From an uncultured Prevotellaceae bacterium (GTDB lineage Bacteria > Bacteroidota > Bacteroidia > Bacteroidales > Bacteroidaceae): a DNA stretch of 64,000 bases. The stretch lies in contig CAMOUQ010000002.1 in assembly GCA_946626595.1 (NCBI GenBank), positions 1 to 64,000 of the forward strand. Reading direction: 5' to 3'. Below are positions 5,815 to 54,710 of this stretch, one piece after another. A program made the translations under genes and the position numbers. Each line of letters begins with the position of its first letter. The first letter of the stretch is position 1. The notes under the pieces are model-generated. The model did no database searches. It was not told where the DNA came from and saw only the letters and a program-made list of their open reading frames with translations.

Positions 5815-6012
5815 GAATAGTATAGCCAAGGTCGATACATCACGTTGTGACGGCTTACGCATAACGAAGCGCAGGCCATTGCTACACGAGGCGCAGGCCA
5901 TTGCTACACGAGGCGCAGACCGGGACATCACGATGCTCAGGCTATTGCAACACGAGGCATAGGCCAGCGCAACATGTAGCGGAAGCCAGGACAACACGAA
6001 TCTTAAATTCTC
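5815..6012. repeat. Degenerate tandem array, 22-nt period, about 9 units
   Basis: Contiguous 22-mers include ACATCACGTTGTGACGGCTTAC, GCATAACGAAGCGCAGGCCATT, GCTACACGAGGCGCAGGCCATT, GCTACACGAGGCGCAGACCGGG, ACATCACGATGCTCAGGCTATT, GCAACACGAGGCATAGGCCAGC, GCAACATGTAGCGGAAGCCAGG. Confidence 0.85.
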
Positions 6013-7818: not shown

Positions 7819-7890
7819 GAAAATGAGAAATTTAGAAAATGAGAAATTTAGAAAATGAGAAAATGAGAAAATGAGAAAATGAGAAAGGGT
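7819..7890. repeat. 8-nt-period repeat, GAAAATGA/GAAATTTA
   Basis: GAAAATGA GAAATTTA GAAAATGA GAAATTTA then 4x GAAAATGA then GAAAGGGT; fills the gap between two minus-strand genes. Confidence 0.9.
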
Positions 7891-20187: not shown

Positions 20188-20267
20188 CCCTAAAGCCCCT
20201 AAGGCCCCTAAAATAACTAAGGCCCCTAAAGCCCTTAAAATCACTAAAAACCTTAAACCCTAAAAAT
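20188..20267. repeat. Degenerate 9-nt-period repeat, consensus CCCTAARGC
   Basis: From the base after the stop: CCCTAAAGC CCCTAAGGC CCCTAAAAT AACTAAGGC CCCTAAAGC CCTTAAAAT CACTAAAAA CCTTAAACC CTAAAAAT, then ATG. Confidence 0.9.
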
Positions 20268-21542
20268 ATGAATCTGAAAATTCGTCTTACCATTCTAAAC
20301 TTTCTGGAGTTTGCCGTATGGGGAGCCTATCTGACCTCCATGGGTACTTATTTGGCCGGTGTGGGCCTTGGCTCAAACATCGGTTGGTTCTATTCTGTGC
20401 AGGGCATCGTCAGCATCTTCATGCCTGCCCTCATGGGCATTATGGCCGACCGCTGGATGGAGGGGCAGCGTGTGCTGAGCCTGTGCCATGCGCTGGCCGG
20501 TCTCTTCATGATAGGTGCTTCGACCTATGCCTATCAGTCGGGCGATGCCGTTCAGTTCAGCATACTCTTTGGGCTCTACACCTGTTCGGTGGCCTTCTTC
20601 ATGCCCACCATTGCACTCAGCTATTCGGTGGCCTATGCCGCCCTTGAGAAGGCAGGCTACGACACCGTCAAGGCCTTCCCGCCCATCCGTGTTTGGGGCA
20701 CCGTAGGCTTCATCGTGACCATGTGGGTGGTCGACCTCTTTGGTCTGCAGGCTACTCCTGGCCAGTGGATGGTCAGCGGCGCACTCAGTTTGGTCATGGC
20801 CGCTTATTCGCTGACCATGCCCCGTATGCCCATCAATCGGGACAGCAGTCAGCAGAAGACACTGGCCGAAGCCCTCGGTCTGAATGCCTTCAAGCTTTTC
20901 CTGAATCCCCGCATGGCCATGTTCTTCGGCTTTGCCATGCTGCTCGGCTTCTGCCTGCAGATTTCCAATGGCTATGCCAATCCCTTCATCACCAGCTTTG
21001 GTGGCATTGCCGAATATGCCGACACCTTTGGCGTGCAGCATGCCAACATCCTCATTTCCCTGTCGCAGATGAGCGAGACCCTCTGCATCCTGCTCATACC
21101 CTTCTTCCTGTCGCGCTTCGGCATCAAGAAGGTAGTGCTCATGGCCCTCTTGGGTTGGGTATTGCGTTTCGGCTTCTTTGCAGTGGGCAATCCCGGCAGT
21201 GGCGTGTGGCTGTTCATACTCTCGATGATAGTTTACGGCGTGGCCTTTGATTTCTTCAACATCAGCGGTTCGCTGTTTGTCAACCAGGAGACCGACGAGA
21301 GCATCCGTTCCAGTGCCCAGGGCCTGTTCATGATGATGACCAACGGCATTGGCGCCTTCGTAGGCACACTGGTGGCACAGGCCGTAATCAATAACTACGT
21401 CTTCACGCCCCAGGCCAATGGTGCCACAGGCGAAGCCGTCATTGCCGGTTGGCAGACCTGCTGGTACATCTTTGCAGGATATGCCCTCGTGGTGGCCGTC
21501 CTGTTTGCCCTGCTCTTCAAGGATAGTAAGGCCAAGGCTTAA
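20268..21542 (+). CDS. MFS nucleoside:H+ symporter family (NupG-like)
   Basis: 424 aa, ~12 TM; LRLTILNFLEFAVWGAYLTSMGTYL, GIMADRWMEGQRVLSLCHALAG. Confidence 0.85.
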   Translation: MNLKIRLTILNFLEFAVWGAYLTSMGTYLAGVGLGSNIGWFYSVQGIVSIFMPALMGIMADRWMEGQRVLSLCHALAGLFMIGASTYAYQSGDAVQFSILFGLYTCSVAFFMPTIALSYSVAYAALEKAGYDTVKAFPPIRVWGTVGFIVTMWVVDLFGLQATPGQWMVSGALSLVMAAYSLTMPRMPINRDSSQQKTLAEALGLNAFKLFLNPRMAMFFGFAMLLGFCLQISNGYANPFITSFGGIAEYADTFGVQHANILISLSQMSETLCILLIPFFLSRFGIKKVVLMALLGWVLRFGFFAVGNPGSGVWLFILSMIVYGVAFDFFNISGSLFVNQETDESIRSSAQGLFMMMTNGIGAFVGTLVAQAVINNYVFTPQANGATGEAVIAGWQTCWYIFAGYALVVAVLFALLFKDSKAKA

Positions 21543-21655
21543 ACAAAGCTCCGAAAGGCACTAAGGACCTTAAAGTCCCTAAGGCCCTTAAAAATGTCCC
21601 TAAGGCCTTAAGCCCTTAAAGCCCCTAAGGCCCTTAGAGCCCCTAAAGAATAATA
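21543..21655. repeat. Degenerate 9-nt-period repeat, CCTAAGGCC/CTTAAAGCC (one phase slip)
   Basis: CGAAAGGCA CTAAGGACC TTAAAGTCC CTAAGGCCC TTAAAAATG ... CCTTAAGCC CTTAAAGCC CCTAAGGCC CTTAGAGCC CCTAAAGAA; fills the MFS/rsmE gap. Confidence 0.88.
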
Positions 21656-25678: not shown

Positions 25679-25738
25679 TACAATAATATAGCAGAGGCCA
25701 GTGCAACGTATTGCACTGGCCTCTGCTATACTATTGTA
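25679..25738. terminator. 28-bp near-perfect hairpin (1 mismatch, 4-nt loop) between convergent genes
   Basis: TACAATAATATAGCAGAGGCCAGTGCAA - CGTA - TTGCACTGGCCTCTGCTATACTATTGTA. Confidence 0.75.
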
Positions 25739-25835
25739 TCGCTCACTGCTACGTATTGTAGCTGTCTTTGCTACGTGTTGTAACGGGCTTTGCTACGTAT
25801 TGTAGCGGCCTTTACATCTCGATGTGCGCTACAGT
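25681..25835. repeat. Degenerate tandem array, 22-nt period (one 23-nt unit), about 7 units
   Basis: GCAACGTATTGCACTGGCCTCT, GCTATACTATTGTATCGCTCACT, GCTACGTATTGTAGCTGTCTTT, GCTACGTGTTGTAACGGGCTTT, GCTACGTATTGTAGCGGCCTTT, ACATCTCGATGTGCGCTACAGT. Confidence 0.88.
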
Positions 25836-34120: not shown

Positions 34121-34184
34121 TTAACCCTTTAACATTTTAACCTTTTAACATTTTAACTCTTTAACCTTTTAACCCTTTTTGACC
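34121..34184. repeat. 8-nt-period repeat TTAACCTT family
   Basis: TTAACCCT TTAACATT TTAACCTT TTAACATT TTAACTCT TTAACCTT TTAACCCT TTTTGACC. Confidence 0.92.
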
Positions 34185-35426
34185 CACACTTGGTTCATAG
34201 CCCGCAGGCTCTACAGTCAGGGCGGCAATAGTCGCCGTGCATCCCGTTCGGCCATCGTCATTGCGACGGCCGGTGTTGCATTGGGCATTGCCATCATGAT
34301 CATATCCATCTCCGTCGTGCTTGGATTCAAGCATGAGGTGCAGCGCAAGGTCACCGGCATCGGCAGTCACATACAGATTGTCAACTACCAGTCGCTCTAT
34401 GACACCGAGTCGCTCCCCATCGTCATCAGCGACAAGTTGCTCCACAACCTGCGCCACGTGAAGGGCGTCAGCAGTGCCCACCGCTACTGCACCAAGACCG
34501 GAATGCTGAAGACCGACGAAGCCTTCCAGGGCGTCATGTTCAAGGGAATCGATGCCGACTACGACCTCACCTTCCTGCGCAACAGTCTGGTGGGTGGCGA
34601 GATAGACCAGCCTTTCTCAGCCACAGCGTCGACAGACCGACTGGTCATATCCAAGACCCTTGCCCAGCAACTCCACCTCAGTGTGGGCAGCCGCCTCTAC
34701 GCCTACTTCTTCGATGAGACCCTGCGTGCCCGCCGATTCACGGTGGCCGCCATCTACGAGACCAACCTGACGGAGTACGACTCGCGGCTGGTCTTCTGCG
34801 ACATGCACACCATCCATCGCCTTCTGGACTACGAGGCCGACCAGTCGAGTGGGGCAGAGGTTTGCCTCTCCGGTATGGACTATCTGCCCATGGTCTCTGA
34901 GCGTGTGCAGCGCACCGTCAATCATCAGCAGGACCGATACGGCGCACCCTATTCGTCGCCCACCATTCGCGACCAGTACCCCCACATATTTGCCTGGCTC
35001 GACCTTCTCGACCTCAATGTCATCGTCATACTGGTCCTCATGCTGGCCGTAGCCGGATTCACCACCATCAGCGGACTGCTCATCATCATCCTCGAGCGTA
35101 CCCAGTTCATCGGTGTCATGAAGGCCCTGGGCGCAGCCAATCGCCCCCTGCGCCACATTTTCCTTTGGTATGCCCTGATGCTCGTGGTTCGCGGACTGCT
35201 TGTGGGCAACCTTCTGGGCATAGGTCTGTGCCTCGTGCAGCAACACTTCGGGCTGGTGCATCTGGATGCCGCCACCTACTATGTCGACCGCGTCCCCGTG
35301 CTCATCTCGTGGTCGTGGGTCCTCATCATCAACGTCGGCACCCTCCTGCTTTCCACCCTTGCCCTTCTGCTCCCCACGCTGCTTGTCAGCCGCATCCGTC
35401 CGGCTCGCGCCATCCGGTGGGAATAA
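34179..35426 (+). CDS. LolC/E-type ABC transporter permease
   Basis: 415 aa (TTG start, adjoining the repeat); FIARRLYSQGGNSRRASRSAIVIATAGVALGIAIMIISISVVLGFKHEVQRKVTGIGSHIQI. Confidence 0.9.
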   Translation: MTHTWFIARRLYSQGGNSRRASRSAIVIATAGVALGIAIMIISISVVLGFKHEVQRKVTGIGSHIQIVNYQSLYDTESLPIVISDKLLHNLRHVKGVSSAHRYCTKTGMLKTDEAFQGVMFKGIDADYDLTFLRNSLVGGEIDQPFSATASTDRLVISKTLAQQLHLSVGSRLYAYFFDETLRARRFTVAAIYETNLTEYDSRLVFCDMHTIHRLLDYEADQSSGAEVCLSGMDYLPMVSERVQRTVNHQQDRYGAPYSSPTIRDQYPHIFAWLDLLDLNVIVILVLMLAVAGFTTISGLLIIILERTQFIGVMKALGAANRPLRHIFLWYALMLVVRGLLVGNLLGIGLCLVQQHFGLVHLDAATYYVDRVPVLISWSWVLIINVGTLLLSTLALLLPTLLVSRIRPARAIRWE

Positions 35427-35443: not shown

Positions 35444-35663
35444 CTAACTTAACCTATAGCCGTAAGTTACCGAACTTATGGCTGCATGTTGCCGAACCTA
35501 TGGGCGCATGTTGCCGAACCTATGGGCGCATGTTAACTTAACCTTCGGCCATTGCTTCGTATCGTCTGGTTTTAGTCCCTACGTCGATTGAGCTCAGACG
35601 ACGTATTGTCTGGCCTCAAACGACGTATTGTCTAAGCTCAAACGACGTATCGTCTCGGCGCAG
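35444..35663. repeat. Degenerate tandem array, 22-nt period, 9-10 units in unbroken phase
   Basis: From 35466: GTTACCGAACTTATGGCTGCAT, 2x GTTGCCGAACCTATGGGCGCAT, GTTAACTTAACCTTCGGCCATT, GCTTCGTATCGTCTGGTTTTAG, TCCCTACGTCGATTGAGCTCAG, ACGACGTATTGTCTGGCCTCAA, ACGACGTATTGTCTAAGCTCAA, ACGACGTATCGTCTCGGCGCAG. Confidence 0.9.
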
Positions 35664-35785
35664 ACAATATTAGGGCATTTATCATTGCGTCCGAATAAAT
35701 TGGTTAAATCCCTCACTTATTCGTATCTTAAACCTTCGGTTTTAGTCACTCTTGGTCGAAAATGCTCAAACATGTTTGGCATTTT

Positions 35786-35806
35786 CCTCACTTATTCGTA
35801 TCTTTG
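35786..35806 (+). promoter_or_regulatory. Promoter-like CCTCACTTATTCGTATCTTTG upstream of GSIII
   Basis: Contains the TATCTTTG -7 element; the first 19 nt are duplicated at 35711-35729. Confidence 0.65.
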
Positions 35807-35843
35807 CACGCGAAAATAAAGGTATTAGCAGATAAGTGGCAAT

Positions 35844-38036
35844 ATGTCTTCAACACTCAGATTCCAAGTAGTTGGCGAGGCCTTCAAGAAAAGGCCCATA
35901 GAAGTCCCTAACCGAGAGGACCGTCCGAGCGAGTTCTTTGCCAAGTATGTATTCAACAGGCAGAAGATGTTTAAGTATCTGCCTACCCAGGTGTACGAAC
36001 GCATGCTCGACGTCATGGAGAACGGCACGCAACTGGACTTGCAGACGGCAGACGCCGTGGCCGCAGGCATGAAGCGCTGGGCCATGGAGCTGGGTGTGAC
36101 GCATTGCACCCACTGGTTCCAACCCCTGACCGAAGGCACGGCGGAGAAGCACGACGGATTCGTGGAGCACGACGGCAAGGGAGGCATGATAGAGGAGTTT
36201 ACGGGTAAGGCCCTTGTACAACAGGAGCCCGACGCATCCAGTTTCCCCTCGGGCGGCATACGCAGCACCTTCGAGGCGCGTGGCTACTCGGCCTGGGACC
36301 CCGCAAGTCCCGTCTTCGTGATGGGCGACACGCTGATGATACCCACCGTCTTCATCTCCTACACAGGCGAAGCACTCGACTACAAAGCACCCCTGAAGAA
36401 GTCGCTGAAGGCCGTCGACAAGGCCGCTACGGCTGTGGCCCAGCTGTTCTATGACGACGTCACCAAGGTGGTGTCGAATCTGGGTTGGGAGCAGGAGTAC
36501 TTCCTGGTGGACGAGGACCTCTATGCGGCTCGGCCCGACCTGCTGATGACGGGGCGCACCCTGATGGGGCACGACTCGGCCAAGAACCAGCAGATGGACG
36601 ACCACTACTTCGGCAGCATTCCGCGGCGTGTGGCTGCCTTCATGAAGGACTTGGAGATACAAGCCCTCGAGTTGGGCATACCCTGCAAGACGCGTCACAA
36701 CGAGGTGGCTCCGAACCAGTTCGAACTGGCCCCCATCTTCGAGGAGACAAACCTGGCCGTCGACCACAACATGCTGTTGATGTCGCTGATGCGGCGCGTA
36801 GCTCGCACGCATGGCTTCCGCTGCCTGCTCCACGAGAAGCCCTTTGCAGGCATCAACGGTAGCGGCAAGCATTGCAACTGGAGCCTGTCGACCAATACGG
36901 GCGTTCTGCTGCACGGACCTGGCAAGACACCGATGGAAAACCTGCGCTTCATCACCTTCATCGTGGAGACACTGATGGCCGTTTATCGGCACAACGGACT
37001 GCTGAAGGGCAGCATCATATCGGCCACCAATGCCCACCGACTGGGAGCGCACGAGGCTCCGCCAGCCATCATATCCAGCTTCCTGGGCAAGCAGCTGAAC
37101 GACCTGCTCTCGGCTCTGGAGGACAGCGACGACGACCAACTCTTCAACCTGAAGGGAAAGAAGGCTCTGACGCTGGACATCCCCCAGATACCCGAACTGC
37201 TGCTGGACAACACCGATCGCAACCGTACTTCGCCCTTCGCCTTCACTGGTAACCGTTTCGAGTTCCGTGCCGTGGGCAGTCAGGCCAACTGTGCTGCAGC
37301 CATGATTGTGGTAAACACGGCTATGGCAGAGGCTCTGACAGACTTCAAGGAGCGCGTGGACAGCTTGATGGCGCAGGGCGTGGACAAGGTGAAGGCCATC
37401 GTCAGCGTAGTGCGCGACGACATAAAGACCTGCAAACCCATCCGATTCGAGGGCAACGGATACTCCGACGAATGGAAGCAGGAGGCTGCTCGCCGCGGTC
37501 TGGACGTCGAGCAGAGTGCTCCGAAGATGTTCATGCAGTATCTGGCTCCCTCGAGCATCGAGATGTTCGAGAAGATGAGCGTGCTGAACCATGCCGAACT
37601 GGTGGCACGCACGGAAATCAAGCTGGAGACGTACATCAAGAAGATACAGATAGAGGCGCGCATCTTCGGCGACCTCTGCCTGAACCACATCATACCAGTG
37701 GCCACGCGCTACCAGAGCCAGTTGATTGACAACGTGCACAAGGTGAGCGACATCTTCTCGTCGGAGGAGGCTCATCAGCTGAATCATAACAACCTGAAAC
37801 TCATCAAACAAATCAGTGAGCATTCGACCTTTATTACAGAGAATGTGGAACTGCTGACCGATGCCCGCAGGGTGGCCAACCGCATAGAGAATATCGAGGA
37901 AAAGGCCATTGCCTATCACGACACAGTGGCTCCGCTGCTGGAGAAAATTCGCTATCATGTGGACAAACTGGAACTCATCGTCGATGACGAACTGTGGCCC
38001 CTGCCGAAGTATAGGGAAATGCTCTTCATTCGATAG
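35844..38036 (+). CDS. glnN: Type III glutamine synthetase
   Basis: 730 aa; VFNRQKMFKYLP, THWFQPLTEGTAEKHDGF, FPSGGIRSTFEARGYSAWDP, KTRHNEVAPNQFELAP. Confidence 0.96.
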   Translation: MSSTLRFQVVGEAFKKRPIEVPNREDRPSEFFAKYVFNRQKMFKYLPTQVYERMLDVMENGTQLDLQTADAVAAGMKRWAMELGVTHCTHWFQPLTEGTAEKHDGFVEHDGKGGMIEEFTGKALVQQEPDASSFPSGGIRSTFEARGYSAWDPASPVFVMGDTLMIPTVFISYTGEALDYKAPLKKSLKAVDKAATAVAQLFYDDVTKVVSNLGWEQEYFLVDEDLYAARPDLLMTGRTLMGHDSAKNQQMDDHYFGSIPRRVAAFMKDLEIQALELGIPCKTRHNEVAPNQFELAPIFEETNLAVDHNMLLMSLMRRVARTHGFRCLLHEKPFAGINGSGKHCNWSLSTNTGVLLHGPGKTPMENLRFITFIVETLMAVYRHNGLLKGSIISATNAHRLGAHEAPPAIISSFLGKQLNDLLSALEDSDDDQLFNLKGKKALTLDIPQIPELLLDNTDRNRTSPFAFTGNRFEFRAVGSQANCAAAMIVVNTAMAEALTDFKERVDSLMAQGVDKVKAIVSVVRDDIKTCKPIRFEGNGYSDEWKQEAARRGLDVEQSAPKMFMQYLAPSSIEMFEKMSVLNHAELVARTEIKLETYIKKIQIEARIFGDLCLNHIIPVATRYQSQLIDNVHKVSDIFSSEEAHQLNHNNLKLIKQISEHSTFITENVELLTDARRVANRIENIEEKAIAYHDTVAPLLEKIRYHVDKLELIVDDELWPLPKYREMLFIR

Positions 38037-52276: not shown

Positions 52277-54688
52277 ATGAAAAAGACAATTCTGCTATGC
52301 CTCATGTTGCTGGCGACTCTCATTGCATCGACTGCCGACGCCCAGAAGCAACCCGATGTCTGGCCCAACGGCGAACCGATGGACCAGTGGTTTGCCGATA
52401 CGGCCAAGGTCAATTCCCAGCTGCTGGGACGCCGATACGTCGTCACCCGACATGGCGTGCGCAGCAAGTGTCCCGACGTGCAGACCAAGGCCCTGCAGGC
52501 CGTCATCGACCAGGCTGCCCATGAGGGCGGCGGCATAGTCGTCATACCCAAGGGCACCTTCCTGACGGGGTCGCTCTTCTTCCGTCCGGGCACGCATCTG
52601 CACCTCGAGAAGGGTGCCGTGCTGAAGGGCTCGCAGTCGATTGCCGACTATCCCGTCGTAGAGACGCGCATCGAGGGACAGACGTGCAAGTACTTTGCCG
52701 CACTGGTCAATGCCGACCACGTCGACGGATTCACCATCACCGGCCCTGGCACCATCGACGGCAGCGGCAAATCCTTCTGGCAGGCCTTCTGGATTCGTCG
52801 CTCGTGGAACCCCGAATGCACCAACAAGGACGAGCAGCGTCCGCGCCTCACCTTTATCTCTAACTCCAGCAACGTAACCCTGCAGGATGTCAGGCTGATA
52901 AACTCTCCGTTTTGGACCAATCACATATACAAGTGCGACCACGTCCGATTCCTCGACCTCTACATCTATTCCTCCACCACCGACATCAAGGGACCCTCCA
53001 CCGACGCCATCGACATCGATGCCTGTCACGACGTGGTGGTGCGCGGCTGCTACATGAACGTCAACGACGATGCCGTGGTCCTGAAGGGCGGCAAGGGCAC
53101 CTTCGCCGACCAGGCACCCGAGAACGGACCTTGCTACAACATACTCGTGGAGCGCTGTCACTATGGGACGGTGCACGGCTGCATCACGGTGGGTTCGGAG
53201 AGCCTGCACGACTGGAACATCGTCATGCGCAACTGCGTGGCCGACGACACGCGCAACGTCCTCTGGCTGAAGATGCGCCCCGACACGCCCCAGCACTACG
53301 AGTGGATGCGCATCGAGGGCCTGTCGGGCCGATGCCGCAACTTCCTGCTCGTGCGCCCCTGGACGCAGTTCTACGCCAAGGGCAATCGCGACGACATGCC
53401 CCTGTCGCGATGCAACGACATCGCATTCAGCAACATCAGCATGCAATGCGAGCAGTTCCTCCACGTCGAGGGGTCGGACAAGTACAGCCTGCGCAATTTC
53501 TCTTTCTCCGACATTGCCTGCACGGAGAAGCACACCTCCACCCGTCGCCCCTTGCCCATCATCAACTGCCGCGTGGAGAACGTCGTCATCAACAGCCAGC
53601 CCTATTCGCCACATTCGTCAGCCCAAGGCGACAGCATCATCCAGGTGGCACGCCAGGCCAACGCATACTTCATGCAGCACAACCCCGACCCCACCGTCGA
53701 ATCCTTTGTCCACAACAAACGACGCCCCAGCCACATCTGGACGCGCGGCGTCTACTACGAAGGCCTCATGGCCCTCTACGACGTCTGTCGCGACAGCACA
53801 TACCTCGACTATACCGACCGCTGGGCCAACCACCATCGCTGGGCGCCGTGCGGCAATATGCGCACTACGCATGCCGACAACCAATGTTGCATGCAGACCT
53901 ACCTGGAACGCTATCGCATGACCCACGACCAGCGCATGCTGCAGGCCGTCCGGCACAATCTCGACCACCAGATGCAGACGCAACGCGTGAGCTACTGGAC
54001 GTGGATAGATGCCATACAGATGGCCATGCCCGTGTATGCACAGATGTACGGGACGACGGGCGAGCGAAGCTACATCGACTATGCCATGCGGGCCTACCAG
54101 TGGTGCAGGAACGAGTGCGGAGGAGGCCTCTATAATAAGGAAGAAGGCCTGTGGTGGAGAGACAAGGACTTCGTGCCACCCTACAAGGAAAAGGACGGAG
54201 CCAACTGCTACTGGAGCCGCGGCAACGGGTGGGTGTATGCAGCACTGGTCAGGGTGATGGACGAACTGTCGCCCGACGACCCCTACTTCGCCCAACTGCA
54301 TGCCGACTACATGTCGATGAGCCGTGCCTTGTTGGCCTGTCAGCGCGAGGATGGCTTCTGGAACGTCAGCCTTGCCTCGCCCACGACCTTCGGCGGCAAG
54401 GAACTGACGGGCACCTCCCTCTTCCTCTACGGCATGGCCTGGGGCATACGCCGTGGCTATCTCCAGGACGAGGCCTACCTCCTGGCCTGCGACAGGGCCT
54501 GGCAGGGTATGGCTCGCGAAGCAGTGCATGCCAACGGATTCCTCGGCTGGGTGCAGGGCACAGGCAAACAGCCCTCCGACGGGCAGCCTCTCTCCTACTC
54601 TCGCGTGCCTGACTTCGAAGACTACGGACTCGGATGCTTCCTCCTTGGGGCGGTGGAGTATTATAAGGTTAAAAAGTTAAAAAGTTAA
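52277..54688 (+). CDS. Secreted bifunctional GH28 (polygalacturonase-like) - GH105 (unsaturated uronyl hydrolase-like) fusion
   Basis: 803 aa; N-half GGGIVVIPKGTFLTGSLFFRPGTHLHLEKGAVLKGS, STDAIDIDACHDVVVRGCYMNVNDDAVVLKGGKG, HGCITVGSE; C-half DNQCCMQTYLERY, WSRGNGWVYAALVRVMDEL, GTSLFLYGMAWGIRRGYL. Confidence 0.9.
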   Translation: MKKTILLCLMLLATLIASTADAQKQPDVWPNGEPMDQWFADTAKVNSQLLGRRYVVTRHGVRSKCPDVQTKALQAVIDQAAHEGGGIVVIPKGTFLTGSLFFRPGTHLHLEKGAVLKGSQSIADYPVVETRIEGQTCKYFAALVNADHVDGFTITGPGTIDGSGKSFWQAFWIRRSWNPECTNKDEQRPRLTFISNSSNVTLQDVRLINSPFWTNHIYKCDHVRFLDLYIYSSTTDIKGPSTDAIDIDACHDVVVRGCYMNVNDDAVVLKGGKGTFADQAPENGPCYNILVERCHYGTVHGCITVGSESLHDWNIVMRNCVADDTRNVLWLKMRPDTPQHYEWMRIEGLSGRCRNFLLVRPWTQFYAKGNRDDMPLSRCNDIAFSNISMQCEQFLHVEGSDKYSLRNFSFSDIACTEKHTSTRRPLPIINCRVENVVINSQPYSPHSSAQGDSIIQVARQANAYFMQHNPDPTVESFVHNKRRPSHIWTRGVYYEGLMALYDVCRDSTYLDYTDRWANHHRWAPCGNMRTTHADNQCCMQTYLERYRMTHDQRMLQAVRHNLDHQMQTQRVSYWTWIDAIQMAMPVYAQMYGTTGERSYIDYAMRAYQWCRNECGGGLYNKEEGLWWRDKDFVPPYKEKDGANCYWSRGNGWVYAALVRVMDELSPDDPYFAQLHADYMSMSRALLACQREDGFWNVSLASPTTFGGKELTGTSLFLYGMAWGIRRGYLQDEAYLLACDRAWQGMAREAVHANGFLGWVQGTGKQPSDGQPLSYSRVPDFEDYGLGCFLLGAVEYYKVKKLKS

Positions 54689-54710
54689 AAGGTTAAAATG
54701 TTAAAAGGTT
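54663..54710. repeat. 8-nt-period repeat TTAAAAGG/TTAAAATG/TTAAAAAG
   Basis: AAGG TTAAAAAG TTAAAAAG TTAAAAGG TTAAAATG TTAAAAGG TTCTTG; first units encode the KVKKLKS* C-terminus of the GH28-GH105 protein. Confidence 0.9.

Follow-up and report, generated by a model that had tools for sequence, protein, structure and literature searches.

The 64,000-nt stretch of DNA analyzed here (the window) comes from the draft genome of a gut bacterium, 2.54 Mb in 162 contigs and 78% complete (the own genome, G000). Two short tandem arrays lie in the gap between a lolE-like gene and a glutamine synthetase gene, and the features that bear on them are as follows.

1721-1769, 7819-7886, 20188-20268, 21561-21648, 34121-34178 and 54668-54710: gaps with 8- or 9-nt tandem repeats.
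5864..5974, no strand: further 22-nt array, unit ACGAGGCGCAGGCCATTGCAAC (TRF, lag scan).
25732..25813, no strand: further 22-nt array, unit TATTGTAACGGTCTTTGCTACG, in a gap between convergent genes (TRF, lag scan, gene calls).
34179..35426, plus strand: gene for a lolE-like lipoprotein-release permease (NCBIfam lolCE, 5e-50, under the curated cut-off).
35451..35534, no strand: left sub-array, period 22, 3.8 copies, 85% match, unit AACCTATGGCCGCATGTTGCCG (TRF, lag scan); it corresponds to the GTTGCCGAACCTATGGGCGCAT subfamily of an earlier, sequence-only reading of this DNA.
35535..35592, no strand: inter-array stretch of ~58 nt, non-repeating except for part of a right-family unit around 35554-35575 and a GAGCTC joint that begins at 35590.
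35593..35655, minus strand: right sub-array, period 22, 2.9 copies, 87% match (TRF), recognizable up to 35663; reverse complement of the dispersed GAGCTCAGACAATA plus CGTCGAT(G/T).
35776..35811, plus strand: probable glnN promoter, TTGGCA, 17 bp, TATCTT, with a Bacteroidetes-like TATCTTTG (sequence scan).
35844..38036, plus strand: gene for a glutamine synthetase of 730 aa that resembles GlnN/GSIII in its length and relatives.

The catalytic part of the glutamine synthetase matches the NCBIfam GlnA and GS models below cut-off, and tblastn returns 590 relatives of the protein. The left sub-array starts 24 bp past the stop codon of the lolE-like gene, and TRF reports both sub-arrays as free of indels. 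The sequence-only reading had taken the whole block for nine units of 198 nt in unbroken phase. The data instead resolve it into two separate arrays. Identity at lag 22 falls to 4–10 of 22 positions between ~35533 and 35577; in the register of that reading, the slices at 35532 and 35576 agree with every other slice at 4–11 of 22, which is background level, and only the slice at 35554 joins the right-hand set (12–14 of 22). No register between the left and right sub-arrays stands out, with the proposed one scoring 0.40 and others 0.42 and 0.40. The two subfamilies quoted in the reading are real but unrelated to each other in sequence, and its description of the array as the longest holds for the combined block and not for any single array. 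The locus thus holds a pair of minisatellite sub-arrays, both intergenic, which happen to occupy the lolE–glnN gap.

At the threshold used, a lag scan of the 64-kb window detects four arrays at lag 22 and none at lags 19–21 or 23. Simulated with a third-order Markov model, 366 kb of the own genome yields zero arrays at lags between 5 and 60, and the real arrays are therefore far above chance. Rfam covariance models give no match at gathering score within the window. The short intergenic gaps of the window are otherwise largely filled by 8- or 9-nt tandem repeats, such as TTAACCTT, GAAAATGA and CCCTAAAGC, and these make up another repeat class alongside the 22-nt arrays.

The right sub-array is one member of a family dispersed through the own genome. 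Its 14-nt core GAGCTCAGACAATA, with at most one mismatch, occurs 75 times, and the reversed control does not occur at all. Grouped by position, these motifs fall into ~35 intergenic loci flanked by unrelated genes, several of them at contig ends. A right-family array lies no more than 200 bp from a contig end in C8, C9, C11, C22, C48, C56, C82, C86, C142 and C161; since contigs break near these arrays, the assembly probably underestimates their number. The left family is far sparser: BLAST detects weak relatives at three other places in the own genome and nothing in 60 relatives. Of these three, the one on C38 is an intergenic array built of another unit, and no obvious array is seen in the stretches read at the remaining two.

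Units of the right family consist of a palindromic joint, GAGCTC, followed by 16 nt (AGACAATACGTCGATG) in the 22-nt units or by 17 nt (AGACAATACTAAGGTTG) in the 23-nt units. They occur in either orientation, and in the own-genome arrays that were read both orientations are mixed inside single arrays. The parsed steps number 21 of 22 nt and 38 of 23 nt, and the two lengths are mixed within seven arrays. Strict 22-nt phasing in the own genome is ruled out by this mixing, even inside one array, which also argues against helical precision at the level of a single base there. With genes called by a codon-usage gene caller written for the analysis, none of the 22 parsed loci overlaps a gene. The neighboring gene ends are 3′ in 19 cases and 5′ in 18, so that there is no preference for either in the own genome. 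Divergent gaps contain no arrays in the samples from the own genome (0 of 34) and from G012 (0 of 20); other own-genome loci and G025 do have some.

Among the congeners, the right family is nearly absent. Its core motif is present at 0–4 copies in each of 40 congeners, and its 80-nt consensus finds one weak match, in G021, and nothing else; the exception is G061, which carries one array of the 23-nt type. By these searches, the family appears to be found almost only in this species. A TRF survey of seven congeners (42–340 kb apiece) nevertheless reveals period 21–23 families with unrelated units in six, the seventh, G001, being the smallest sample. Unit sequences unrelated to one another have a period of 22 bp in G012, G014, G021 and G025 and of 23 bp in G017 and G061. 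Periods of 21–23 stand out in the congeners, with 19, 20 and ≥25 rare.

The spacing is best seen in G025, where the palindrome CGCACCRYGGTGCG, with at most one mismatch, occurs 1038 times (control, 12; other congeners, 0–16). In 200 kb of this genome, the 42 nearest-neighbor spacings of up to 70 bp are 22 bp in 36 cases, 44 bp in five and 36 bp in one, with none at 21 or 23, and the copies of the palindrome carry 29 different 8-nt linkers. Within the same distance, all spacings are 23 bp in G061 (8 of 8) and G017 (7 of 7), the main motifs give 22 bp 11 times and 44 bp three times in G012, and nine and four times in G014, and G021 has spacings of 22 or 44 bp. A looser G014 motif gives other spacings too, because it overlaps itself. 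The reversed control motif gives no spacings of up to 70 bp. It is this spacing rule that we find of interest: as judged from draft genomes, with families sampled on a small number of contigs, most sampled congeners have a family of their own with a fixed 22- or 23-bp step. The earlier proposal that length is held while sequence diverges thus survives as a property of the class across the genus, but not for this locus or for the own genome, where 22- and 23-nt steps are mixed.

Palindromic units are strong in some families only, namely those of G061, G017 and part of G025. In an array-level permutation test, four of six arrays in G061 and five of ten in G017 are palindromic at p ≤ 0.05. The two sub-arrays of the window give p = 0.49 and 0.22, and a single test on the consensus unit of the right sub-array gives p = 0.03. 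We therefore reject a universal palindrome rule, given that significance is confined to some species and, in the window, to that one consensus-unit test.

In several species the arrays have a leader at one end. The leader is polar, with an AT-rich end followed by 20–34 nt of alternating purine and pyrimidine that is not conserved in sequence, and the array comes next. In 430 kb of the own genome, five of the six alternating tracts of at least 20 nt adjoin the leader motif GTTAGGTTGGGGCTC, either in exact form or, by visual inspection, as a variant. A tract with GTTAGGTTGGGGCTC is found at six own-genome loci and variants at others, and the copy upstream of glnN is leaderless. The same layout with different units is seen in G021, G061 and G014. 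By one fixed criterion for arrays, tracts have an adjoining lag-22/23 array in 12 of 16 cases in G014, 5 of 7 in G061, 2 of 3 in G021 and 2 of 6 in the own genome, and in these four genomes the array is always on one side of the tract only. The G014 and G061 loci were picked for having tracts, not arrays, and the thresholds for tract and array were chosen after looking at the data. As a null, 50 of 2120 random positions have an array at any lag beside them; these positions are mostly coding, which makes the null generous to the association. Tracts of at least 24 nt number 109 in G021 and 36 in G014, counted as overlapping matches, and some congeners have none. G025 is one of these, so not every family of the class has a leader. 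Of 78 further genomes in the order, including one in the same family, 65 have no tract by an automated tally; in four others whose tracts were read, these are mostly simple AT or TG repeats, and two more genomes have 32 and 38 matches. Such Z-DNA-prone sequence is as a rule suppressed in prokaryotic genomes (PMC4060949).

The closest known element is BrickBuilt, a minisatellite/MITE of Porphyromonas gingivalis that has 23-nt tandem units without spacers, is always intergenic, occurs at 19 loci, carries a leader at one end and has no BLASTn match outside its species (PMC4596501). Both are found in Bacteroidales and share intergenic tandem units of 22–23 nt and dispersal within one species; some of the arrays described here also have a leader at one end. 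However, the leader and tail of BrickBuilt extend up to ~300 nt with IS5-type terminal inverted repeats (PMC4596501), whereas the leader here is a 20–34-nt purine/pyrimidine tract and sister species have unrelated units with nearly the same step. On reading the flanks of own-genome arrays, no terminal inverted repeats were noticed. Plasmid iterons, for example the 22-bp iterons of R6K, are direct repeats of ~22 bp, or two helical turns. The arrays described here have a like period, suited to cooperative binding on one face, but are chromosomal and dispersed beside unrelated genes. Rep_3 (PF01051) has no match in G000, G014, G017, G021, G025 or G061, and is present in 7 of 41 genomes of the genus. 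The literature, in which subscription journals were sparsely covered, yielded BrickBuilt and the REP families and no description of this architecture.

On balance, we favor the view that these dispersed, nearly species-specific intergenic arrays, with their fixed step, variable linkers and associated leader, are a lineage-specific class of leader-array elements, and that the right sub-array upstream of glnN is a leaderless copy of one family. An element of the class would consist of the polar leader and then a few units stepping 22 or 23 bp, each species having its own unit sequences, often as inverted half-sites around short linkers. With a step of about two helical turns, the inverted half-sites would put neighboring sites on the same face of the DNA. 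The step may be held since a dimeric DNA-binding protein, or a hairpin-processing enzyme, engages these neighboring sites, and we infer cooperative binding by a dimeric protein on one face. Conversion between loci, or propagation as non-autonomous repeats, could explain how the elements spread. Several points count against the leader-array class: the sub-arrays upstream of glnN have no leader and units that are not significantly palindromic, palindromes are strong in some families only, the own genome mixes 22 and 23 nt, G025 lacks the leader tract, length could be kept inside an array by tandem duplication, and no protein, enzyme or mobility event has been identified for the class.

More tentatively, it is possible that this genus of Bacteroidales holds an undescribed class of elements in which a Z-DNA-prone leader is joined to an array whose sequence is replaced between species while its two-helical-turn step is kept. 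A fast-evolving partner protein, able to read both the spacing and the palindrome particular to each species, would be implied, and the elements would resemble a bacterial version of satellite DNA that diverges rapidly. If the pattern holds, the genus swaps the sequence of an abundant intergenic repeat, with up to ~1000 near-matches in one genome, between species with the step kept at 22 or 23 bp. If true, it would offer a bacterial test case for selection on spacing independent of sequence, and for the protein or process responsible, and would place a Z-DNA-prone tract in a defined element.

A simpler account is that the arrays are neutral minisatellites, which grow by slippage, inherit their unit length and spread occasionally by recombination, the shared 22–23 bp coming from the replication machinery and not from selection. 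Indeed, unit length could be kept by simple inheritance through tandem duplication; the arrays are just two to seven units long, young arrays are expected to be indel-free, and the same genomes are rich in intergenic arrays of 7, 8 and 9 nt. We consider this account doubtful all the same, given the concentration of congener periods at 21–23 and the spacings in G025, which hold at exactly 22 across fully diverged linkers. Nor does plain slippage predict the association with a leader.

It is less likely that the unit acts in RNA as a hairpin, with the array serving as a transcription terminator or as a stabilizer of mRNA 3′ ends. The window region does fold better than shuffled sequence (RNA z = −4.75, DNA z = −5.1), and in G025 a T4 run lies within 40 bp to the right of 24 of 30 clusters (T4 background, 11%), an A4 run to the left of 14 of 30. 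G025 arrays thus often end in T-runs, and termination may be a use of the arrays in that genome. However, a sequence scan finds no terminator-like site in the region of the two sub-arrays, the own genome has no 3′-end bias, the G025 motifs are also in 6 of 13 divergent gaps, and the G061 palindrome AAGATTAGTAATCTT, by inspection, would form a weak, AU-rich RNA hairpin.

The sequence-only reading had suggested a regulatory or insulating role for the array at glnN, in which phased units would bind a glnN regulator, or a nucleoid protein shielding its promoter. The position, 190–390 bp upstream of the start codon and ahead of a plausible promoter, would suit such a role, and two of 19 congeners likewise have a period-22 array within 500 bp upstream of glnN. 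But those two arrays are unrelated in sequence, and no such array is found upstream of glnN in the other 17 congeners or in any of 79 other species. The lolE-like gene precedes glnN at none of 80 public glnN loci from named genomes, some of which are short on that side. With neither neighborhood nor array conserved, and with right-hand units at ~35 unrelated loci, we reject glnN-specific regulation as very improbable; for a copy of a dispersed leader-array element, any effect on glnN would be incidental.

Least plausible of all is a REP/BIME or CGTC-tagged REP family whose mobility depends on a tyrosine (Y1, RAYT) transposase. Such families resemble the present ones in being intergenic, high in copy number and variable by species, in forming composite arrays of alternating orientation and, for some families here, in their palindromes (PMC3733652, PMC2817692), and CGTC-tagged REPs are reported from Bacteroidetes with no known transposase (PMC3733652), but here the step is 22–23 bp with variable linkers of fixed length, no invariant 4-nt tag is established, congener units are wholly different in sequence, and Y1_Tnp (PF01797) gives nothing over cut-off in G000, which is 78% complete and has a match below cut-off, or in G012, G014, G017, G021 and G025. 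Neither RAYT/REP nor Rep_3/iteron machinery is found, then, in the genomes searched. Judged on spacers alone, a CRISPR array (unique spacers of at least 25 nt) is also rejected, as linkers are 8 nt where defined (G025) and the own-genome arrays have no long spacers.

Finally, the surroundings of glnN hold other repeats. Several other Prevotellaceae (L079, L070, L062, L081 and L085) have period-22 arrays of unrelated sequence a short way downstream of the gene. The region of the probable glnN promoter, ~35709-35820, is itself a promoter-like repeat found dispersed across the genus, with several copies in many congeners. The repeat there is AAATGCTCAAACATGTTTGGCATTTTCCTCACTTATTCGTATCTTTGC, with a second copy of CCTCACTTATTCGTATCTT upstream, and the same double layout is seen at L091 16420-16530, ahead of a secreted-protein-like gene.
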